Source: a virus
Length of the DNA stretch: 21,672 nucleotides
IMG/VR virus record: IMGVR_UViG_3300028920_000294
Span: 1 to 21,672 of that record
Strand: one strand, 5' to 3'
The position numbers were made by a program, and so were the translations under genes. This document shows, one piece after another, positions 9,814 to 21,672 of the stretch; positions within the stretch are counted from its first letter, which is position 1, and each line of letters starts with the position of its first letter. The notes under the pieces are model-generated. The model saw only the letters and a program-made list of their open reading frames with translations, ran no database searches and was not told the origin of the DNA.

Positions 9814-10083
9814 TTATCCCTCGAACGACTTTTCTAAACATCTAACATAAGCTTCAAGTAACCTTATATACTCTTTCCAATGTAATATACAAACATCTAA
9901 TTCACCGAACTTAGCAAAATCATCTGTCGGTGCAAGTAAGTCACAAACATAGTCATATTTCGGTTTTTCACAGGTATTAACATACTTTTTGTACACTGGT
10001 ACATATTTAGTAACTACCTTAGTCGTACTACAGCTGCATAAGCTTATTAAGACGACCCCAAATAAGACTAAAATCTTTCTCAT
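9814..10083 (-). CDS. Outer-membrane lipoprotein spanin (Rz1-like)
   Basis: 89 aa with a lipoprotein signal: M-R-K, a hydrophobic core, and Cys at residue 18 in an L-C-S-C lipobox. Mature residues include V-P-V-Y-K-K-Y-V-N-T-C-E-K-P, a Pro/Cys-containing start seen in many outer spanins. The first 56 bp lie inside the end of the upstream coiled-coil membrane protein gene, in another frame, which is the standard nested Rz/Rz1 layout. With that partner it would fuse inner and outer membranes at lysis. Four more Cys residues after the lipobox are unusual and could form disulphides. Confidence 0.75.
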   Translation of the reverse strand: MRKILVLFGVVLISLCSCSTTKVVTKYVPVYKKYVNTCEKPKYDYVCDLLAPTDDFAKFGELDVCILHWKEYIRLLEAYVRCLEKSFEG

Positions 10084-10405
10084 CCTTTGCCTGTTCTATT
10101 ATTTGTTCACCCTTTTCTTTTTCTATCCTTACTATCTCTTTTATTCTTACTATTTCTTTTTTATTAGCCTTCTGGAACTCAATAGCATCATTAAGATATT
10201 TAACTTCCATGTCTTTTATCTTATTTACTAATACTAGCTTTTCAGACTCACATTGAGCCTTATTTTTAATAATCTCAGACTCCAAAACTTTAATCTCAGA
10301 TTTTTTAATATTTATGTCCTTAGACATTATTATAATAGTAGATATTAAAGCAATTAATACAACTAAGATAATGGCTGAAACTATTATTTTAGCTTTAGTA
10401 AACAC
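10028..10405 (-). CDS. Inner-membrane spanin (Rz-like)
   Basis: About 125 aa starting at GTG 10405-10403, chosen because GGAGG (10415-10411) lies 5 nt upstream; a TTG at 10417 would overlap that site. It has one N-terminal transmembrane helix (about residues 6-28, mostly I/V/L/A) followed by a long charged coiled coil (K-S-E-I-K-V-L-E-S-E-I, then V-R-I-K-E-I-V-R-I-E-K-E-K). This type II membrane plan, with the lipoprotein gene nested at its 3' end, fits an inner spanin. Finding it in the head-neck junction rather than beside a holin and endolysin is uncommon; neither of those is recognisable in this window. Confidence 0.72.
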   Translation of the reverse strand: MFTKAKIIVSAIILVVLIALISTIIIMSKDINIKKSEIKVLESEIIKNKAQCESEKLVLVNKIKDMEVKYLNDAIEFQKANKKEIVRIKEIVRIEKEKGEQIIEQAKDEKDFSLIWGRLNKLMQL

Positions 10406-10421
10406 TCTAACCTCCAAAATA

Positions 10422-10450: not shown

Positions 10451-10828
10451 CTACTTACCTTTTGTCTCGTTTTTAGCCTTAAGTTCTGCTTTTTTAGCCT
10501 CAGCTGCTTCTTCTGCCTCTTTTGCTTTTTTAGCTTCTTCTGCCTCTTTTGCTTTTTTAGCTTCTTCTTCTTTAGCCTTTTGTTCTTTTTCGGCTTTTTC
10601 AATGTCATATGCTTTTTTAGCATCTTCTGCCTTTTTAGCATTATCGGCCTGCTTAGCGGACTCTACTTCATCATCAACTTTAACATATCGCATAGCCTGC
10701 AATATTTTAGCATCTGCTTCATTGTCGACGGTAAATTTACCGCCGACAAATTTGCGAAGAGAACCCTTATGATCGTAGAACTGAAGACTTTTAAACTGAG
10801 ATTTAAAAGTTTTTCTAAACTTCGACAT
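10451..10828 (-). CDS. Small head-region protein with Lys/Ala/Glu helical tail
   Basis: 125 aa from ATG 10828, which has GAGG 5 nt upstream; a GTG two codons earlier (10834) overlaps that site and is less likely. The N-terminal 45 residues are folded-looking (L-Q-F-Y-D-H-K-G, L-R-K-F-V-G-G-K-F-T-V-D-N-E-A-D-A-K-I-L-Q), resembling small proteins that often follow capsid genes. The rest is a continuous Lys/Ala/Glu helix containing an exact 27-bp tandem repeat. Its place just after the major capsid gene suggests a head-decorating or head-fibre role, but this is not proven. No known domain was recognised with certainty. Confidence 0.65.
   Translation of the reverse strand: MSKFRKTFKSQFKSLQFYDHKGSLRKFVGGKFTVDNEADAKILQAMRYVKVDDEVESAKQADNAKKAEDAKKAYDIEKAEKEQKAKEEEAKKAKEAEEAKKAKEAEEAAEAKKAELKAKNETKGK
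10506..10559 (-). repeat. 27-bp tandem repeat, two exact copies
   Basis: Copies at 10506-10532 and 10533-10559 are identical and keep the reading frame, coding a nine-residue A-K-E-A-E-E-A-K-K-type unit. Partial copies continue on both sides. The repeat probably expands or shrinks by slippage and would change the length of the helical tail. Confidence 0.85.
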
Positions 10829-10837
10829 AATCACCTC

Positions 10838-11947
10838 TTACCAAGTGGTTTTAAGATTAGTAAGCCTTGAGTGAGCTTTCTCCTGCTTAAATTCAAAAGT
10901 ATACTCACCAACTACCATACCTGAATAGTAGTCACCTTTCTTTCCAAGGTACTCATGGAAGAAGCTTCTAGAACCAAGAGGTCTAACTTTGGCTCTGTTA
11001 ACATCCATGAAAATCATTTCATCAGGCTTGAGGTTAGGGTTAACTCTAACAGGGAACTCACCAAGGTCAGTTACAACCCAGTTAACTGTCTCACCTCTTA
11101 CACCGTCAGTTCTCTCAATAATAAGAGAATTAGCATCAAGTGCTCCGATCTTTCTCTTCTGAGTAGGACTAACCATAAATACGTAATTACCAGCAGCAAC
11201 ACCTGCATGGTCAGCAACAGCCTGAACTGCATCATTAAGCATCTTTTTACTGATGTCAGCAGCAGAAGCATCTATGATATTAGTCTGTATCCAAGCTTTA
11301 AGGCCAGCAAACTGACGAACATTACCGGCTGAGTACTTAACACCATCAATACAAGCTTTTTCAAGCTGCAGTGCTAGCTCAACGAGCTTCTTCTGTTTTT
11401 CGTACTCATAAAGTTTGTCAATACCATACTGCTCAATCTCTGCAGCTGTACCTGTTACTTCAACAGTGTCATCAAAGATCTGAGTGTAATTCTGCTTGTT
11501 GACTCTAGGTTTGTATCTAGAAGTCCTAGCATCAGCACCTTCTTCGCCTTCTACAAAGTTAATGCTAATAGATTCTCCAGCTGTGGCTGCAGCCGCAGTT
11601 GTACCAGCATAACCTCTTGTAACGGTAAGCTCGTATGTACCGCCTGTGCTAATGGCTGTAACTTTCATGAGCTCTTCGTTAATCTGAATAATATGACCAA
11701 CTCTAAACTTCTGACGTTCGTCGGCATCAGCAAGCACTAGTGTTGTTGCAGCATCAGTAATATCAGCAGCAAGTGCTGACTTATAACCATACATTTCGTC
11801 TTCATTCCACTCATGGAGAGTATTCCTTACAGGATTACCGAATCCACCAAGCATCGAAAGAAGAGGGATCTGAATAGGATTAAGCAGAAGCATTTCATCT
11901 ACTACGCTTTCCTTTTTACCTACAATAAGATTTGAAAAAACTGACAT
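10838..11947 (-). CDS. Major capsid protein (DUF5309/SU10-type HK97 fold)
   Basis: 369 aa. The N-terminus (E-M-L-L-L-N-P-I-Q-I-P-L-L-S-M-L-G) and the body (T-Q-I-F-D-D-T-V-E-V-T-G-T-A, E-Y-E-K-Q-K-K-L-V-E-L-A-L-Q-L-E-K, Y-V-F-M-V-S-P-T-Q-K-R-K-I, F-P-V-R-V-N-P, M-I-F-M-D-V-N-R-A-K-V) match the DUF5309 group of HK97-fold capsid proteins. Residues about 55-130 hold an inserted beta block with L-M-K-V-T-A-I-S and T-V-T-R-G-Y-A-G-T, common in this family. Base composition and codon use look less AT-rich than most neighbours, which fits very high expression. It follows the scaffold gene by 10 nt, with AGGAGG before the start. Confidence 0.9.
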   Translation of the reverse strand: MSVFSNLIVGKKESVVDEMLLLNPIQIPLLSMLGGFGNPVRNTLHEWNEDEMYGYKSALAADITDAATTLVLADADERQKFRVGHIIQINEELMKVTAISTGGTYELTVTRGYAGTTAAAATAGESISINFVEGEEGADARTSRYKPRVNKQNYTQIFDDTVEVTGTAAEIEQYGIDKLYEYEKQKKLVELALQLEKACIDGVKYSAGNVRQFAGLKAWIQTNIIDASAADISKKMLNDAVQAVADHAGVAAGNYVFMVSPTQKRKIGALDANSLIIERTDGVRGETVNWVVTDLGEFPVRVNPNLKPDEMIFMDVNRAKVRPLGSRSFFHEYLGKKGDYYSGMVVGEYTFEFKQEKAHSRLTNLKTTW

Positions 11948-14247: not shown

Positions 14248-15666
14248 TCATAAAAATCTTTTAATAGGCACAATCTCACCAGGCTCATCAGTATCATCTA
14301 ACATTAATTCTGTTAAACACCATACTAAAGCATCTAACCTATTAGGTGAATCCTCTCCAGGTACCCATTCACACATTTCACTTTCTAACTCAGGAAAATC
14401 ACCTACGTGATGTACAACACCTTTATCATATAATGTAGATATAGGCTCTGCCCTTAATCTCTTTCCTCGTGCTGCGTGCACCTTTTTAAAATTAACTTTT
14501 GATCCTGTAGTTTGTAAAACCATTTCAACAAGATCTCCGCCGTTATTAGTTTCTGCTACAACTAAATCGGCTTGTTCTTTTTTATAACGCTTTACAGCCA
14601 AACCTGACCATATACTAGGATGACACTTTCTAGAGTCATCAGCAAAAACATAGGCGTGACCTTCAGCTGTAAGACCAGCTGTAATTATACCTGCTTCATC
14701 AGATCTTTCATTATCTGTAACAGACGGATCTATTGCTACTACAATACGAATAAAGTCAGTTGGCCTAGCATTAACCTTATGTTTTTGTATAACTTCATGG
14801 TTCCAAAGAGCACCAGCTACATCGCTAAACAATTTACCATATAACTCCTGCTCACCAATACGAGTACCGTCATACTTTTTAATAACACGTTCTATAAACC
14901 TACTAGACAAGTTAGATAGGTTTTCAAAACTAGATCCTAAAGTAAGATAAGTACTAGGGTCTTCTACCATCTTTTTAATAGTCGGTCGTGGTTTAGGAGT
15001 ACCAGTGGCTATGTACTGAGGATTGTCACCAATACGAAGACCAAGCTCAAACATATCTATGCAGTCTTCCAAGTACTTGAACTTACCGGGTTCATCAACC
15101 CATCCTTTGTGATGCTGAGGTCCTCTAAGCTGGTCCGGTTCGTCTCCTGAATAGATAAACCCCTTTGCACCATTAGGCCATTCAATCTGTCTTTTAGAAG
15201 CGATATATCTTGGTCTATTGTAAGGCGGAGCTACAGTAATAAGCCCCGATTCACCGTGTAACATAACATCACGTACGTCAGCAGTGGTTTGTCCGATTAA
15301 GGCAAAAATACCATAGCCTCGACGCTGCCACTCAATAATTGTCTCTGCACCGGTACGAGTTTTTCCAAAACCACGACCAGACATTATGAACCAGAGGTAC
15401 CAGGCACCCTCTGGTATTCGTTGCTTCGGGCGAGCCCAAAACGACCAATCATATAACAGCAATTCAGTCTGCTCAGCCGTAAGGCTGTTAAAAAACGCAT
15501 CCTGGTCTTCTTTAGGTAATCTAGCAACTAGTTCAGCATTAGACATATTATTAGCCTGTAAGGCTATCTGATGCTTTTCACTTAGATCATCAGACAACTT
15601 GATAGGATTAGCGGTTAAAGCCTCCCTTATATCAAGAGTACTATGTTCTAATGCTAAACTGTTCAT
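14248..15666 (-). CDS. terL: Terminase large subunit (packaging ATPase and nuclease)
   Basis: 472 aa. The ATPase domain has Walker A S-G-R-G-F-G-K-T at residues 96-103 and a Walker B-like G-W-V-D-E ending at D191-E192, followed by the coupling motif A-T-G-T-P-K-P near 220. The RNase H-like nuclease domain shows A-I-D-P-S (Asp 313), A-E-T-N-N (Glu 372) and N-R-L-D-A-L-V-W (Asp 445) as probable metal ligands. It cuts concatemeric DNA and pumps it through the portal encoded directly downstream. Gene length is normal for the family. All key residues appear intact. It is separated from the small subunit by three other genes, which is not the usual order. Confidence 0.95.
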   Translation of the reverse strand: MNSLALEHSTLDIREALTANPIKLSDDLSEKHQIALQANNMSNAELVARLPKEDQDAFFNSLTAEQTELLLYDWSFWARPKQRIPEGAWYLWFIMSGRGFGKTRTGAETIIEWQRRGYGIFALIGQTTADVRDVMLHGESGLITVAPPYNRPRYIASKRQIEWPNGAKGFIYSGDEPDQLRGPQHHKGWVDEPGKFKYLEDCIDMFELGLRIGDNPQYIATGTPKPRPTIKKMVEDPSTYLTLGSSFENLSNLSSRFIERVIKKYDGTRIGEQELYGKLFSDVAGALWNHEVIQKHKVNARPTDFIRIVVAIDPSVTDNERSDEAGIITAGLTAEGHAYVFADDSRKCHPSIWSGLAVKRYKKEQADLVVAETNNGGDLVEMVLQTTGSKVNFKKVHAARGKRLRAEPISTLYDKGVVHHVGDFPELESEMCEWVPGEDSPNRLDALVWCLTELMLDDTDEPGEIVPIKRFL

Positions 15667-15673
15667 TAATTAC

Positions 15674-16822
15674 CTATTCTGTTTCTGCTGTTACGAAAGT
15701 TTTATTTCTATAAGCGCCTATACTTATAACATTTCCAACAGGCTTGTTTTCAATATCGTATTTAAGCCAATCTCTAGGCATACCCCAAAAAGACAAAGGA
15801 GAACCTTCTACAAGCTTAAATGTATCTGGCTGAAATTCAGGCACAATATCAGTATTAAGTGTTCCAGCCGGTAGAGGAGATGAGCAAGTTCTCTTAATAT
15901 CTGCACTACCGTAAAGCAGTAATATATTTGACGGCTCATTGTCTACAACAATTGAATTATATAGTATGTGTCCACTACCCTGAAAAAGAACAGTACCAAT
16001 AGCTGTATTGTCTTTTACTATTGAATTTTCAATTCTACATGTTCCCTGATAAGACATAACTGCGCCGTACGGGCTTGAACATCCTTTAACTATTGAGTTA
16101 TAAAGATACCCTTCATAACGAAGACCAACGCCGCCTCCGCCTTGATACCCACCAGTTCCTGTAGAACAGTCTTTTACAATTGAGTTGATACAACTTGCTC
16201 GTTTATCCATAAGATAAACACCACCACCATACTGATCAGCATAACAATCTTTTACTATACAGTCAGATACAAAGCTTCCTATAGGAGCTGTATTTGTTTC
16301 TGTCAACCAAATACAAACACCTCCACCATTACCAGAATTCTCACCAACACTAGTATAAAGCGATCTACCATTCTGAAAAGTAAAACCATAAACTTCTGCT
16401 TCATTAGTAGTATGTATATACATACATCTAATATCAGTTCCTGCTACTGGCTGAATTATTGTCTTTTCTGCACCTTCAACACCAATTATTTTAACAGCCT
16501 TTCCAACATTTATTTCTGCTGTAAGTTCGTACGTTCCTTTAAAAACGAATATTGTATCACCTGCGCTTGCAGCATCAACCGCAGCCTGTATTGATGCTTT
16601 TGCTTCAGCGTAACTCAAACCGTCATCTGCATCTGAACCATCTGGTCTAACAAAATAAAAAGTACCGGTAGGAATAACCTGAAACAGACCTATCATTTCG
16701 CAAGATCCGCCGCCTCCACCGCCTTCTATCTCATCTACAACTTCGTTATTTGCTTCATAAAGCACATTACGACCGTTATCATTATCTAACGCGTCAGGAT
16801 TTTCTATAAATTTTCTCGGCAT
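15674..16822 (-). CDS. Right-handed beta-helix (pectin-lyase-like) protein
   Basis: 382 aa. After a short N-terminal segment comes a run of six glycines (34-39), then F-Y-F-V-R-P-D-G-S-D-A-D-D-G-L-S and A-S-I-Q-A-A-V-D-A-A-S-A-G-D-T-I-F-V, the usual cap of right-handed beta-helix proteins. From about 150 to 310 the sequence repeats short turns such as C-I-V-K-D-C, S-I-V-K-D-C, S-I-V-K-G-C and S-I-V-K-D-N, one per helical rung. There is no signal peptide, so it is probably a virion fibre or spike, or an intracellular product; no catalytic site is evident. The N-terminal segment plus Gly linker could be the particle-binding part. AGGAGG precedes the ATG. Its place between terminase subunits suggests an acquired gene. 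Confidence 0.72.
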   Translation of the reverse strand: MPRKFIENPDALDNDNGRNVLYEANNEVVDEIEGGGGGGSCEMIGLFQVIPTGTFYFVRPDGSDADDGLSYAEAKASIQAAVDAASAGDTIFVFKGTYELTAEINVGKAVKIIGVEGAEKTIIQPVAGTDIRCMYIHTTNEAEVYGFTFQNGRSLYTSVGENSGNGGGVCIWLTETNTAPIGSFVSDCIVKDCYADQYGGGVYLMDKRASCINSIVKDCSTGTGGYQGGGGVGLRYEGYLYNSIVKGCSSPYGAVMSYQGTCRIENSIVKDNTAIGTVLFQGSGHILYNSIVVDNEPSNILLLYGSADIKRTCSSPLPAGTLNTDIVPEFQPDTFKLVEGSPLSFWGMPRDWLKYDIENKPVGNVISIGAYRNKTFVTAETE

Positions 16823-16835
16823 GATACCCTCCTAA

Positions 16836-17234
16836 TTAAAGCTTACTTATTGGTTTACTTTTAAACATAAGTACTTTAGGAGTAGGTGCCTCTTTTGCAG
16901 CTTTAAATTCACTGGCATCAACTTCACAAGAATAGCTTTGCCCGTTGATACTAACTTTAATCATTCCACTCAATTCAAGCACCGAAAGATCTGTCTTAAT
17001 GTCCAGGTCTTCTTTTTTCCCTTTTTCATACGCAATTGAACAAGCCACTTTAACACCCTTGTACTCACCTTCAAGGTCAACTGACTTCTTCTCATCATTA
17101 TATTCAGCTGCAATACCGTAAGTATGGCTATTGCCGCTTTTATCTGTAAAACCTAGCTTAATACTTCCCATAACTGTTCCGATACAAGAAGTCATAAGCA
17201 TTGATACAATTATTACTAGTAAAAGCTTCTTCAT
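16836..17234 (-). CDS. Putative lipoprotein of unknown function
   Basis: 132 aa with a lipoprotein-type signal: M-K-K, hydrophobic L-L-L-V-I-I-V-S-M-L-M, then T-S-C with Cys 17. The mature part is polar and beta-rich (S-I-K-L-G-F-T-D-K-S-G-N, Y-N-D-E-K-K-S-V-D-L-E-G-E-Y, I-K-V-S-I-N-G-Q-S-Y-S-C-E-V). No known domain was recognised. A lipoprotein encoded inside a packaging operon may change the host envelope during infection (for example superinfection exclusion), or it may serve lysis; both are guesses. The gene has GAGG before the start and lies 13 nt before the beta-helix gene. Confidence 0.72.
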   Translation of the reverse strand: MKKLLLVIIVSMLMTSCIGTVMGSIKLGFTDKSGNSHTYGIAAEYNDEKKSVDLEGEYKGVKVACSIAYEKGKKEDLDIKTDLSVLELSGMIKVSINGQSYSCEVDASEFKAAKEAPTPKVLMFKSKPISKL

Positions 17235-17256
17235 TTTGTCCTCTTTTCTTACTTAT

Positions 17257-17727
17257 TTATAAATCTTTTTTATCAATTTCTTTTTTCGTCTCTTCAATTA
17301 TCTTTTTTACGTCAGATTCTCCTACATCATCGTCCGGTTTTTCTTTATTTTTAACACTTTCTATAGATTCTTTAGTCTTAGGAGCAATAATTTCTTCCTT
17401 AGCAGGCTTTACAGCTTCATTAACCTTCTTAGTAGGGCCTACATCTGATTTTGTCTCAGGAGTAGGTACTAAACCATCAGAATTCTTAGGTTCACAGTTA
17501 AACTCAAGCGAGACTGTTTCCTTAAAGTGATTCTTATTTGTGTTTTTAATAAGGTTAAGGATACCTTCCTTCATGCCAAAGTCAACATAGCATACTTTTG
17601 TCTCTGTTTCGAAGCGCACATTAGTAAGTGCACCACTAGGATCTCCAGTAAAAGCTGCAAGAAGCAATATGATAATTGCCTGTATGCCGTTAATAATGTA
17701 AGAAATAACTGTTTTGTTAGCCTTCAT
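17257..17727 (-). CDS. Single-span membrane protein of unknown function
   Basis: 156 aa. One hydrophobic stretch (about residues 7-28, I-I-N-G-I-Q-A-I-I-I-L-L-L-A-A-F) follows a short basic start, then a middle part with two Cys residues and a long Lys/Glu/Pro/Ser tail (about 80-156) that looks disordered. The plan suggests a type II or III membrane protein with the charged tail on one side. It could be a holin-like or envelope-modifying protein, but nothing specific supports either. It begins 1 nt after the small terminase stop and has GGAG before the ATG, so it is cotranscribed with terminase. Confidence 0.68.
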   Translation of the reverse strand: MKANKTVISYIINGIQAIIILLLAAFTGDPSGALTNVRFETETKVCYVDFGMKEGILNLIKNTNKNHFKETVSLEFNCEPKNSDGLVPTPETKSDVGPTKKVNEAVKPAKEEIIAPKTKESIESVKNKEKPDDDVGESDVKKIIEETKKEIDKKDL

Positions 17728-17728
17728 T

Positions 17729-18571
17729 TTAGCTCTCCTCTTTGTTGTTACTATTATCTTCGTCTACCGATTCTTCGTCATCATCTAAATCGTTTTCTTT
17801 AACAACAGAAGCCTCTCCTTTCTTAATTAGTTCAGCAACTGCTTGATTTTTAGCCCTTTCAACGATTGTGTCAAGTTTACCACGAAGTTCTGAAAGATTA
17901 GCTTCGATTTTGATAGGATCACCATCAGCACCAGTGACCTCGACCTTCTCTTTAAACATACCAAGATGCTTACCAACTGCTTCGAGGGCCGCCATTTTAT
18001 TATGGAGTTTAATTTTTACTCCATATTGTGTGCTTTGGACTTCGGAAATCATAGATGTATCAACTTCAGAACTATTTTTAAGAGTAACAACGTCTTTATC
18101 GAATTCGAGAAATTCGCCAATATCAGCAAATGCAATTTTAGCATATTCGTTTAGTACAGCTTGAGAAGTAACCTGACTAACATCTCTCAACTCTTGCTGT
18201 CTGCACATGATGATAAAGCGAATAATAGGATTTGTCAATCTCAATCTAGCTGCAACAGATGGTGTCTTATATCCAAGTCTCTTTGCTGCAGCAGCTCCAT
18301 CAAAGTCAATCATAAACTCGTTGATAAAGTTCTGATCTGCATCAGGTAGGTCTGAAAACAATGAATCGCTATTAAAAAAGCAACCTTCACCTGCTAGAAC
18401 TGAGAATACATGTTTATTTGAAAGAATCCTCATTCCTACAGCTTCACTGATGTTCATCTCTTCACAGACAAGAGCATTATCTTCGTGAATTTTATACAAG
18501 TCAATGTATTTTTGTGTTTTTTCATTATTTTTAGCACTTAGCGGATTATAGTTATAATTTTTATCAGACAT
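17729..18571 (-). CDS. terS: Terminase small subunit (DNA-recognition)
   Basis: 280 aa. Residues 75-122 carry the Terminase_2 type helix-turn-helix: D-A-D-Q-N-F-I-N-E-F, D-G-A-A-A-A-K-R-L-G-Y, S-V-A-A-R-L-R-L-T-N-P-I-I-R-F-I. A helical region with A-K-I-A-F-A-D-I-G-E-F follows, then K-M-A-A-L-E-A-V-G-K-H-L-G-M-F-K-E-K near 192-209, also typical. The C-terminus (250-280) is very acidic (D-D-D-E-E-S-V-D-E-D), probably contacting the large subunit. About 70 extra N-terminal residues include another helical stretch (E-A-V-G-M-R-I-L). It is the first gene of the late operon, with AGGTGA just before the ATG, next to the large non-coding repeat region, where a packaging site could lie. Confidence 0.85.
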   Translation of the reverse strand: MSDKNYNYNPLSAKNNEKTQKYIDLYKIHEDNALVCEEMNISEAVGMRILSNKHVFSVLAGEGCFFNSDSLFSDLPDADQNFINEFMIDFDGAAAAKRLGYKTPSVAARLRLTNPIIRFIIMCRQQELRDVSQVTSQAVLNEYAKIAFADIGEFLEFDKDVVTLKNSSEVDTSMISEVQSTQYGVKIKLHNKMAALEAVGKHLGMFKEKVEVTGADGDPIKIEANLSELRGKLDTIVERAKNQAVAELIKKGEASVVKENDLDDDEESVDEDNSNNKEES

Positions 18572-18611
18572 TCACCTAACCTCAGGTTAAATTCCTCGAC
18601 CATCTAAATAC

Positions 18612-18640
18612 ATTATAATATATATGCACCCGCGCGTAAA
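18612..18640 (-). promoter_or_regulatory. Sigma70-type promoter of the late operon
   Basis: On the minus strand a -35 TTTACG (18640-18635) and a perfect -10 TATAAT (18617-18612) are 17 bp apart. A start near 18605 would give a leader of about 34 nt with AGGTGA before the small terminase ATG at 18571. It is the only good promoter-like pair upstream of the whole minus-strand series. Confidence 0.65.
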
Positions 18641-18682
18641 TATAAAATTATACTATTTACTAAATTAGTTTACTTTAAAATT

Positions 18683-18795
18683 AAGCCAGGGTTAACTGTT
18701 ATTAAGTGAATAAAAAACGTAATAGCGAAGCCAGGTGTTCGATGGGACCAACCTTAGCAAATTTAATCCATAAACGAGGTGCGAAGCCAGGGTTA
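18683..18795 (+). repeat. Three dispersed copies of (GCG)AAGCCAGG
   Basis: AAGCCAGGGTTA occurs at 18683-18694, GCGAAGCCAGGTGTT at 18725-18739 and GCGAAGCCAGGGTTA at 18781-18795. They share AAGCCAGG and the last two also GCG in front; the first and third share the GTTA end. Spacing is about 44 and 56 bp. GC content is notably above the surrounding DNA. Confidence 0.7.
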
Positions 18796-19052
18796 TGATG
18801 TATTAACATCTTAGTTAGATTTATAAATATCTAGGATCGTTATTTTAGGCCGATATTAGTGCTTCGTGCTGCGCATATTGAAAAAGTAAGTCGGGCCTCT
18901 TACAGCTTTAAAATTATTATCAAAAAAGTTAAACTGAGCCAGTTATCTTACAAGGTAAAGCACGATAAGACAGCTTTTATAGAGACTTAACTAAAGTTAA
19001 AATAAACTAAAATACTATAAGTAATACAATATATGCTACTATATATAATCTA

Positions 19053-19061
19053 TGATATAAT
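19053..19061 (+). promoter_or_regulatory. Extended -10 promoter-like element
   Basis: TGATATAAT matches the extended -10 form TGNTATAAT on the plus strand, with no good -35. Such matches are common in AT-rich DNA. It would drive transcription towards the T-run and the left box array. Confidence 0.3.
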
Positions 19062-19094
19062 AAAAATATATGAGTGAAAAAATTTAGATACCTA

Positions 19095-19136
19095 TTTTTT
19101 TTTTTTTTTTTTTTTAATTAAGGGCACCCCTTAATT
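19095..19136. other. T21 run next to a perfect 9-bp inverted repeat
   Basis: A run of 21 T residues (19095-19115) is followed at once by AATTAAGGG-CAC-CCCTTAATT (19116-19136). Read on the plus strand the hairpin ends in TTTT, a weak terminator; on the minus strand it is followed by A21, not a terminator. The run could be an easily melted or bent DNA segment and is likely to vary in length. Confidence 0.6.
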
Positions 19137-19320
19137 TTAAAGTGCTCCCATATATTTATTTATTGGTCTTAGAATAATTTTCATATTTTACAGCTGTAAT
19201 AAGGTGCAGTTAAATAACTACCAGAAGTTTGCTTGATTTTCAAAATTTTTCTTATATATGAGAGACGTTAAAGTAGGCCTAATCTCCGCTAAGATTTACC
19301 TAATGTCTTGTAAAATATAT

Positions 19321-20116
19321 TTAATCATCATTAAATAATCTTTATTTAATATTATTTAATCTATATTAAGTATAACTTAATTAAAGTTAAGGAATTCCGA
19401 GTTACGACTAACTCCTTAATAGGCATTAAAGTTTATTTAATCTTAATTAAATAATATTTAATTAAATATAAACTATAATATATTTAATCATTATTAAATA
19501 TATCTTAATATATATTATATATTTTATAACTTATAATAAATTAAAATATATTTAATACACATTAAATATATCTTAACTCATACTATATATTATTTAATTT
19601 AATATAAACTATAATATATTTAATCTAGGCTAAGACGATCTTAATGTGAATTAAGAATGATCACTAAGAGATCTTTAATCTACATTAAGACATACTTAAT
19701 ATATATTAAATAATATTTAATAAGCATTATTTAATAGTAACTAAGTTATATTTAATGACTATTAAGAATATCTTGCAGCGGACTTCGTAACTCTTAGCAG
19801 TAATTAAGGAGTTAATAAATATTAAAATTTAATATATAACTTAATCTATATTAAGATTTATCTAATTATCATTTAAAATATTAAAATTTATCATTAAAAA
19901 TAAAAAAAATGTACTTAGTGGCTTTTTTGTTATATAATTAAATATAATATAAATATATTATATATTTATATTATTAACTTAATTTAAATTAAATTTATTT
20001 AATTTAAACTAAGAAAACCTTAATGCTCATTTTGTTGTCTTAGTGATGACTAAGTCAAATTTAATTTTGACTAAAGTTTTTTAATCACTAATTAAAGATA
20101 ACTTAATGTCTAGCAT
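19321..20116. repeat. Left array of about 30 TTAAT-N4-ATTAA palindromic boxes
   Basis: A 14-bp imperfect palindrome, consensus TTARTNNNNAYTAA, recurs mainly at 21-bp steps. Clear copies start at 19321, 19356, 19377, 19416, 19437, 19484, 19552, 19620, 19641, 19675, 19696, 19752, 19812, 19841, 19999, 20040 and 20061, with degenerate ones between them (for example 19458, 19505, 19573, 19594, 19717). No open frame of note exists here. Two turns of the helix separate boxes, so they face the same side. Confidence 0.8.
19416..19633. repeat. 68-bp higher-order unit, three copies plus the start of a fourth
   Basis: Boxes at 19416, 19484, 19552 and 19620 are exactly 68 bp apart. Each full unit holds positions +0, +21 and +42 and then a 26-bp step. 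A stretch of 24 bp at 19466-19489 is identical to 19602-19625, which is 136 bp (two units) away. Another shared piece, ATTAAATATATCTTAA, lies at about 19493 and 19561. Confidence 0.75.
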
Positions 20117-20136
20117 GGTTCATTGAAAATTGAGTA

Positions 20137-20202
20137 AAAGAAAAATTACAAAGACTAGATTTTTCTTTGTTCTCGCTAAGTGAATTGACTTAGCAACTAA
20201 GT
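20137..20202 (+). promoter_or_regulatory. Leader with overlapping alternative hairpins before the plus-strand gene
   Basis: A 10-bp-arm hairpin (AAAGAAAAAT 20137-20146 with ATTTTTCTTT 20159-20168) competes with ACAAAGA (20148-20154) pairing TCTTTGT (20164-20170). Next, GCTAAGT (20175-20181) pairs ACTTAGC (20188-20194), while the overlapping ACTTAG (20188-20193) can instead pair CTAAGT (20197-20202). A poor promoter-like TTGACT lies inside at 20185. This may be an operator, an attenuator or both. Confidence 0.5.
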
Positions 20203-20234
20203 TATTTTTAATTTAAATTTGAGAGGACAAAACC

Positions 20235-20795
20235 ATGACTAAGAAAAATGAAACAACAACAAAGGAAATCAAAGCCAACATTAATGTTATTGAATCTGCA
20301 TTAGAAAAAGCTAACATCAAAATTGATGAAGTTAGTCTACATTCTAATTCGTTTAAGTTCAGTTTTAGTTTTCCTAATGGAAACTATTTCTGCTTATTCA
20401 AGACTAATCTTAAAGGAATCGCCACTGAGGAATGTGAAATTGATGGTAAGAAATTCAAAGTTGGCATTAAGAAATTCTGTAAGCTCGCTAAATTTAATGA
20501 AGATGTGGCTAAAGAACTCTTAGTTAAAAGAAATCAAATCTTAAAGTCGATTAGAGGAGATAAGTCTGACACTTCAAAAATTGAGTTTGAAATTAAAGAA
20601 ATTGAAGAGAAGATTAAGACTTATGAAGAGAAGATTAAAAATCTTCAAATCAAGGCTAAGGAAAAAGAAGTGGAGCTTAAAGAATCTTTAGCTTTTGAAA
20701 AGAATAATAAAATCGACACTAAGGAACTTAAAGAGAAAGCTAAAAAAATGCAAATTGAGAAGTTACAAAAAGAACTTGAAGCTTTGAAATCTTAA
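20235..20795 (+). CDS. Coiled-coil protein of unknown function, flanked by box arrays
   Basis: 186 aa, on the opposite strand to all late genes. It starts with ATG preceded by GAGAGGA 7 nt upstream and ends with its own strong terminator, so it is a single-gene unit. Residues 1-25 are charged. Residues about 28-105 look like a small mixed alpha/beta domain (S-F-K-F-S-F-S-F-P-N-G-N-Y-F-C-L-F-K, then C-E-I-D-G-K-K-F-K-V-G-I-K-K-F). Residues about 112-184 are a long Lys/Glu coiled coil (E-I-K-E-I-E-E-K-I-K-T-Y-E-E-K-I). No known family was recognised. Codon use has fewer ATA and CTA codons than the late genes. Its place between two box arrays suggests a link with them, for example a box-binding, bridging or silencing protein; this is speculation. 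Confidence 0.82.
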   Translation: MTKKNETTTKEIKANINVIESALEKANIKIDEVSLHSNSFKFSFSFPNGNYFCLFKTNLKGIATEECEIDGKKFKVGIKKFCKLAKFNEDVAKELLVKRNQILKSIRGDKSDTSKIEFEIKEIEEKIKTYEEKIKNLQIKAKEKEVELKESLAFEKNNKIDTKELKEKAKKMQIEKLQKELEALKS

Positions 20796-20813
20796 GTCTT
20801 GATTAAACAAATC

Positions 20814-20846
20814 TTAGGGTAGACTTTGTCTACCCTAATTTTTTTT
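20814..20846 (+). terminator. Strong intrinsic terminator of the plus-strand gene
   Basis: TTAGGGTAGAC (20814-20824), loop TTT, GTCTACCCTAA (20828-20838), then eight T residues (20839-20846): an 11-bp perfect stem with a U-run, 18 nt after the stop codon. Confidence 0.93.
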
Positions 20847-20855
20847 CTATTATGC

Positions 20856-21610
20856 TTAATGACCATTAAGAATGATCTAATTAACTTTAAATCATTTTTA
20901 ATTGAAACTAAAACATTTTTAGTCTATATTAATATGTTTTTAGTGCAAACTAACCATTTTTAAGCATTAATTAAGATCGGATTAATCGAAACTAAATCGA
21001 TTTTAATTGAAACTAAATCATTTTTAGTCTATACTAATATGGTTTTAATATAAACTAACCATTTTTAAGTCTTAATTAAATATGATTAATTGAAACTAAA
21101 TCGATTTTAATTGAAACTAAACCATTTTTAGTCTAGGTAAATATGGTTTTAATATAAACTAACCATTTTTAAGTCTTGATTAAATATGATTAGTCTAAAC
21201 TAAATCACTTTTATTCTTTATTAAAAATGGTTTAACATAAACTTTACCATTTTTAGTGCAAACTAATACGATTTAATATCCATTAATAACGATTTAGCTT
21301 TCATTAAGATCGACTTAGTTTCCATTAAAAATGGGAAAATCAATACTTAAAAATGGTAAATCTCAATTAAAACGGTTTTAATCCATATTAAAACGGATTT
21401 AGTTTCAACTAAAAAATGGTGAATCTTAACTAAAACTATTCTAGTTTAGGTTAAAAGACTTTTAATTTATATTAAAGAATGGTTAGTCTAAACTAATCAA
21501 ATTTAAACAATCATTAAGGGTGCTTAGTGATGATTAACAATTTTAGATTACTGACTAAGGGTATTAAATTGTAAGCTAATCTTAAGTAAGATTTTTTTAG
21601 TCAAAACTAA
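20856..21610. repeat. Right array of about 35 TTARTNNNNAYTAA boxes on a 21-bp period
   Basis: Boxes start at 20856, 20877, 20898, 20919, 20940, 20960, 20982, 21003, 21024, 21045, 21065, 21086, 21107, 21128, 21149, 21169, 21190, 21211, 21232, 21253, 21273, 21294, 21315, 21336, 21357, 21378, 21399, 21420, 21441, 21462, 21483, 21503 and 21524, with looser ones at about 21543, 21564 and 21597. Steps are 20-22 bp throughout. A few are 15 bp long. The 6-7-bp spacers are often ATCATTT, ACCATTT, ATCGATT or TATGGTT. The phase is kept even where the box itself has decayed (21336, 21357). No gene is present. Confidence 0.92.
20898..21210. repeat. 104-105-bp higher-order tandem repeat, three copies of five boxes
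   Basis: Units are 20898-21002 (105 bp), 21003-21106 (104 bp) and 21107-21210 (104 bp). Each contains the same ordered set: TTAATTGAAACTAA, TTAGTCTA-type, a box followed by the short CCATTT spacer, a 15-bp TTAAG...ATTAA variant, and a fifth ACTAA box with ATCGATT or ATCACTT. Order and the odd 15-bp box are conserved, showing block duplication. Confidence 0.88.
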
Positions 21611-21646
21611 GAAACATAAAAAGTTTACCACAAATTTAGGAGCCCC

Positions 21647-21672
21647 ATGTTGGAAAAATTTTGCGAAAATTT
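21647..21672 (+). CDS. Probable start of the next plus-strand gene (8 codons visible)
   Basis: ATG 21647 is preceded by AGGAG (21638-21642) with a 4-nt gap, directly after the end of the right box array. The visible residues are M-L-E-K-F-C-E-N. The frame is open to the window edge. Too little is visible to say what it is. Confidence 0.5.

Follow-up and report, generated by a model that had tools for sequence, protein, structure and literature searches.

In phage T7, the spanin genes 18.5 and 18.7 lie between gene 18, which encodes the small terminase subunit (TerS), and gene 19, which encodes the large subunit (TerL); the product of 18.7 is a lipoprotein. Proteins such as T4 T and RI carry an N-terminal membrane segment followed by a periplasmic domain, and beta-helix folds are common in tailspikes. 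A paper and a review (PMC5292684, PMC7602432) describe a two-part design of capsid decoration proteins, in which a binding segment is joined to an exposed domain.

Here, we describe a phage in which the two terminase genes are parted by three genes, those of a membrane protein, a lipoprotein and a beta-helix protein. The split is comparable to that of T7, since in both cases TerS and TerL are separated in the late region by a membrane-protein gene and then a lipoprotein gene. However, the T7 pair are nested spanins, whereas the two genes found here do not overlap, are not spanin-like and are accompanied by an added beta-helix gene; moreover, the spanin candidates of this phage sit elsewhere (9814-10417). 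The split layout is uncommon, yet not new, as T7 provides a textbook precedent. We propose that, in this phage lineage, the late operon has a standing accessory spot between its two terminase genes and that the genes in it have separate histories: a membrane-protein gene that is kept, a lipoprotein gene that is optional and the gene of a modular surface protein; we give this reading a probability of about one half.

Results

Layout of the late operon

The stretch of DNA analysed here (the window, 21,672 bases) is an entire uncultured virus record and carries the minus-strand late operon of a contractile-tail phage, some of whose gene labels rest on gene order and on annotated phages used for comparison. 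The order on the minus strand is TerS, membrane protein, lipoprotein, beta-helix protein, TerL, an SPP1-type portal (PF05133, E 4e-79), a gene in the scaffold position and an SU10-type major capsid protein (PF17236, E 4.1e-79). Downstream of the capsid gene follow a small Lys-rich protein, a spanin-like pair, a neck-type gene, sheath, tape measure, and Dit-like, hub and spike genes. The terminase names given in the initial annotation are correct by Pfam: TerS (17729-18571, minus strand) matches Terminase_2 (E 4.7e-26) and also phrog_51 (E 6.8e-23), and TerL (14248-15666, minus strand) matches Terminase_6N (E 7.9e-19) and Terminase_6C (E 2.2e-8). The three ORFs that it had placed between them are all found, likewise on the minus strand: those of a bitopic membrane protein of 156 aa (17257-17727), a lipoprotein of 132 aa (16836-17234) and a beta-helix protein of 382 aa (15674-16822). 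From TerS through to TerL, the successive genes are spaced by 1, 22, 13 and 7 nt and all are co-directional; the Shine-Dalgarno-like stretches of the three inserted genes (gaggaga, agaggac and ggaggg) are good, in keeping with the shared operon and good ribosome sites described before. Searches of the whole window with Pfam and PHROGs recognised no endolysin or holin, and Rfam gave no match in the window or in L091, the close relative described below.

Two further observations concern the capsid region. In the major capsid protein (10838-11947), residues from about 57 to 130 match tail, tail fibre and baseplate PHROG modules (phrog_1101, E 2.1e-7; phrog_11439, E 5.4e-6) and are perhaps a shared inserted domain. 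The small protein encoded after the capsid gene (10451-10834 in the window, 9748-10059 in L091) has a low-complexity, repetitive end, of AKKAKEAEE type in the window and of GKVEA type in L091.

Spacing of the terminase genes

The spacing was surveyed at 95 loci with a TerL relative, the window counted in, using a TerS profile grown from the TerS of the window over five rounds without convergence (11 to 44 hits). An upstream TerS-like ORF was recognised in 44 of the 95, the window and L091 among them, although the weakest of these assignments, near E 1e-5, could be erroneous; the remaining 51 loci have no TerS call and are uninformative on spacing. At 39 of the 44 loci, TerS overlaps TerL or ends at most 100 nt from the TerL match; a split is uncommon here, though not new, as T7 and L039 show. 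The five exceptions in the survey have gaps of 559 nt (L041), 1016 nt (L091), 1357 nt (L039), 2063 nt (the window) and 4114 nt (L046). In the gap of L039 (210-1561) lie genes for an endolysin of the amidase type (PF01510, E 7.8e-16; phrog_1493, E 6.9e-46) and for a holin (phrog_9284, E 3.1e-6); that of L041 holds a single 133-aa protein (phrog_18251, unknown function) and that of L046 several ORFs without assignment. With the spanins of T7 and the endolysin and holin of L039, the gap, uncommon as it is in this TerL family, is a recurrent site for lysis genes elsewhere.

Six annotated TerL relatives were also compared. A gene abuts or overlaps the start of TerL in L002, L004 and L005, and is annotated as small terminase in L004 only; L003 has TerS, then two tiny ORFs and then TerL, and L006 and L007 have no TerS annotated beside TerL. 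A scan of genome contigs with the TerL pair yielded 6 loci at 42-46% identity, and none of them has the three genes by tblastn (E 0.01).

Comparison with the close relative L091

The sole close relative found, L091 (17,125 bases), was recovered by a scan with the capsid protein, while single-sequence scans of viral contigs with TerL, the lipoprotein, the membrane protein and the beta-helix protein returned no relative. L091 is syntenic with the window from TerS through the tape-measure gene at 35-72% identity (TerS 60%, membrane protein 37%, TerL 72%, portal 62%, scaffold 54%, capsid 67%, sheath 54%). By tblastn, 18 of 25 window proteins were found in L091; the seven without a match are the lipoprotein, the beta-helix protein, the product of the plus-strand ORF 20235-20795 and four baseplate-side proteins, which would fall past the end of L091. 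Between the membrane protein and TerL, L091 has one ORF of 176 aa. Since the gene order from TerS to the tape measure is the same and the terminases are split at the same place, the shared layout is more than chance.

L091 retains the membrane protein but has no lipoprotein, and a different protein takes the place of the beta-helix protein, which argues that the three genes are inherited independently; the calls of kept and swapped rest on one pair of phages, the window and L091. The initial annotation had named the three genes being fixed in related phages as what would speak against its reading, and L091 goes halfway towards this, as one of the three is kept there and the other two are not.

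The beta-helix protein and its N-terminal segment

The beta-helix protein bears its name on a borderline profile match (PF13229, E 1.3e-5), which scores 25.3 bits where the cut-off is 25.9; its residues ~52-161 show partial matches to two tail fibre PHROGs (phrog_9851, E 5.9e-8; phrog_17885, E 1.6e-7). The protein is built of an N-terminal segment shared with L091, a six-Gly linker (34-39) and the beta-helix domain. The shared segment (16730-16792, minus strand) occupies residues 11-31 both here and in the 176-aa protein of L091, with 8 of 21 positions identical and 15 of 21 similar (BLASTP, E 0.001); the only other BLASTP segment between the two proteins is a chance match (E 26). The ungapped score of 53 was reached in 0 of 2000 shuffles of the N-terminal 45 residues of the L091 protein and in 0 of 300 shuffles of the whole protein, and the equal distance from the start in both proteins is added evidence outside the E-value. 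Beyond this pair, none of 50,697 phage records matched the beta-helix protein by tblastn at E 0.01, and a PDB sequence search returned nothing. The L091 protein has no relative in the same records at E 10 (tblastn) and no Pfam or PHROG match, and its predicted model is of low confidence (pLDDT 38.4).

We read the beta-helix gene and the 176-aa ORF of L091 as one gene, of which the N-terminus would have been kept and the remainder exchanged. Neither protein has a hydrophobic N-terminus, and thus neither should be exported alone. A kept N-terminus, a swapped remainder and the lack of a signal peptide together fit a virion-surface protein that is docked by its N-terminus; the beta-helix protein may then be an interchangeable virion-surface protein with a putative N-terminal docking segment. 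It resembles the T5 pb10-type decoration proteins (also Hoc, SPP1 gp12 and the phi29 head fibre) in joining a binding segment to an exposed domain, and a conserved N-terminal segment with a variable exposed domain, as in decoration proteins, is seen in the two sequences at hand, those of the window and L091. It differs from these proteins in that there is no sequence match, that the exposed part is a beta-helix and that capsid binding is putative. The head is preferred as the docking site because the gene is positioned beside the head genes. Among the roles that the initial annotation had offered, a virion spike is the better reading for this gene.

The protein could instead be a tail spike or tail fibre that binds a receptor and possibly degrades glycans, its gene being merely placed in the head module. 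The two tail fibre PHROGs matched over residues 52-161 provide the family match expected of such a protein, and sheath, hub and spike genes are present in the window, so that a tail-attached spike is conceivable. However, the gene lies between TerS and TerL and not in the tail or baseplate module, which is the usual, if not strict, location; it is far from the baseplate genes at 172-2947, and its counterpart in L091 carries a different, unrecognised domain. We therefore regard a tail spike as rather unlikely and prefer a surface protein docked on the head.

Composition and signals of the three genes

To the initial annotation, the three genes looked like acquired cargo acting on the host envelope (superinfection exclusion, lysis control) or like a virion spike. 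As one cargo, they would form a moron whose products act jointly on the host envelope, in superinfection exclusion. The split on which this was based is real and uncommon, the gap being absent from 39 of the 44 loci with a recognised TerS, and envelope-targeting N-termini are found on two of the three proteins. What does not stand is the notion of one set, given the independent inheritance seen in L091. Moreover, the third product, the beta-helix protein, lacks a signal peptide, there is no PADLOC match, and the GC contents of the beta-helix (0.380), lipoprotein (0.358) and membrane protein (0.342) genes are within the range of the other 21 genes (0.271-0.411). Consensus scans found promoter-like and terminator-like sites near chance number, with 15 of the former against 10.2 +/- 3.2 expected and 1 of the latter against 1.5 expected; an own promoter or terminator together with deviating composition, as in a moron, is not seen in these scans. 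A single jointly acting cargo is thus improbable.

The codon-usage score of the lipoprotein gene (0.092) is the lowest of 24 genes, the next being those of the o-spanin candidate (0.111) and TerS (0.112). There is no clear sign of recent acquisition, and the lipoprotein gene is the likeliest newcomer.

The membrane protein and the lipoprotein

By hydropathy, the membrane protein has one N-terminal hydrophobic segment (about residues 5-27), and its L091 homologue (E 5e-18) also has a single such segment. The core conserved between the two reads TKxCxVDFGMKEGxxNLI...FNC, with both Cys (46 and 78) kept, and the charged C-terminal tail is poorly conserved. The pattern DFGM[KR][DE]G occurs in 27 stretches of viral contigs, among which inspection and tblastn identified a relative only in L195, which is the contig of L091. 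Pfam and PHROGs gave no match up to E 1, and no homologue of known function was found; a PDB sequence search with the window and L091 proteins gave four matches at E 0.18 or worse, and tblastn of the L091 protein against the 50,697 phage records gave 3 records at E 5 or worse.

Because it directly follows TerS in both phages, the membrane protein gene belongs to the lineage, and it is probably a lysis or envelope gene common to it. Since the gap recurrently houses lysis genes and the searches of the window identified no holin, a holin or antiholin is our first guess, based on position and topology; a role in exclusion is the alternative. The protein resembles class III (single-span) holins and periplasmic antiholins in having one N-terminal membrane segment and then a domain that is presumably periplasmic in the orientation we infer, but differs from them in that neither Pfam nor PHROGs places it in a family of holins or antiholins.

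The lipoprotein has a signal peptide with a lipobox-like MTSC (Cys17), followed by a beta-rich domain, as judged from sequence, hydropathy and an AlphaFold2 model. The model, predicted from the single sequence, has a mean pLDDT of 72.2 (72.2 to 40.4 over five models), with block means of 74-91 over residues 41-130. Foldseek of the model against PDB and BFVD found nothing at E 0.001, and the best VIA-align match (Atg18, Z 5.6) is in the range counted as common arrangement. The sequence has no relative in L091 or in the viral contig scan, tblastn against the 50,697 phage records gave 9 records at E 1 or worse, a PDB sequence search gave nothing, and no homologue of known function was found. As L091 has no lipoprotein, the membrane protein can do without one. 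We regard the lipoprotein as an optional accessory of this phage alone, which plausibly acts at the host envelope.

The lipobox-like MTSC and hydrophobic signal are features that the lipoprotein shares with o-spanins; an obligate pair is not formed, as L091 has the membrane protein without it. A better spanin pair would be the one at 9814-10417, where the gene of a membrane-anchored i-spanin candidate (10028-10417, minus strand) overlaps that of an o-spanin candidate, a short lipoprotein (9814-10083, minus strand), by 56 nt and out of frame, with both present in L091 (44% and 45% identity, respectively). The i-spanin candidate has an N-terminal membrane segment and a long charged helix-like region, with a weak match to the Rz-like spanin phrog_214 (E 0.044); the o-spanin candidate matches the Rz-like spanin phrog_456 (E 1.2e-4) and, under the cut-off, Pfam LysC (E 0.043). 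Judged by pairing and profile, the two-Cys membrane protein is probably not an i-spanin. A reading of the membrane protein and the lipoprotein as a second lysis pair of the inner and outer membrane, comparable to the T7 spanins, agrees with their position and order, membrane protein then lipoprotein as in 18.5/18.7, but is highly improbable, because L091 retains the membrane protein without the lipoprotein, the two genes are 22 nt apart without overlap, neither matches a spanin profile in Pfam or PHROGs, and both phages have the better pair.

The spanin candidates sit between the capsid and neck genes and not in a lysis cassette; both are conserved in L091.

The region upstream of TerS

About 3 kb upstream of TerS are nearly ORF-free and very AT-rich in both phages (window 18572-21672, GC 0.237; L091 1-3034, GC 0.247). 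In the window, TTAA recurs there at helical spacings (10, 11, 21, 31, 42 ... 126 bp), with 29 pairs at 21 bp against 1.7 expected; in L091, from base 891, there are 45 pairs at 10 bp against 2.6 expected, both expectations being from Markov resampling. Among the loci tested for phasing, the window and L091, of which L177 is a duplicate, come first. The left contig end of L091 (1-890) is a long array of AAGGATTAAGGAGAAGGA-type units in 13- and 20-base steps. The ORF at 20235-20795, the only one on the plus strand above 100 aa in the AT-rich region of the window, matches no family at better than E 0.003 and is without a counterpart in L091. Possibly, the TTAA region is a pac site, an origin or protein-wrapped DNA, and it is perhaps of more interest than the terminase split.

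Discussion

In the proposed accessory spot, each of the three genes would have a role of its own. First, a small inner-membrane protein encoded after TerS may act in lysis timing or envelope control, most likely as a single-span holin or antiholin, with its conserved two-Cys domain presumably in the periplasm. Second, a virion-surface protein encoded before TerL may dock on the virion by its short N-terminal segment, most likely on the capsid or the neck, since the gene is within the head module; its swappable exposed domain, here a beta-helix, would contact the environment or the host surface, the swap being seen in one phage pair. Third, the lipoprotein may be an optional extra that plausibly acts at the host envelope. 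We infer both main functional claims from two genomes. It is a tentative and somewhat doubtful further step to suppose that the segment LxxDxGRNxxxxxxNxxxDE is a new virion-docking peptide by which this lineage exchanges entire displayed domains, beta-helix or other, at one gene beside the terminase, and that the two-Cys membrane protein at the same time founds a new family of envelope or lysis regulators.

Because the layout has a textbook precedent, our claim stays modest. The terminase gap emerges as a recurrent place for lysis genes, and perhaps for virion-surface genes, as in T7, L039 and the lineage of the window, and the locus provides a short candidate docking peptide. It also corrects the view of such loci, in that an unusual gap between the terminase genes need not be a single acquired cargo.
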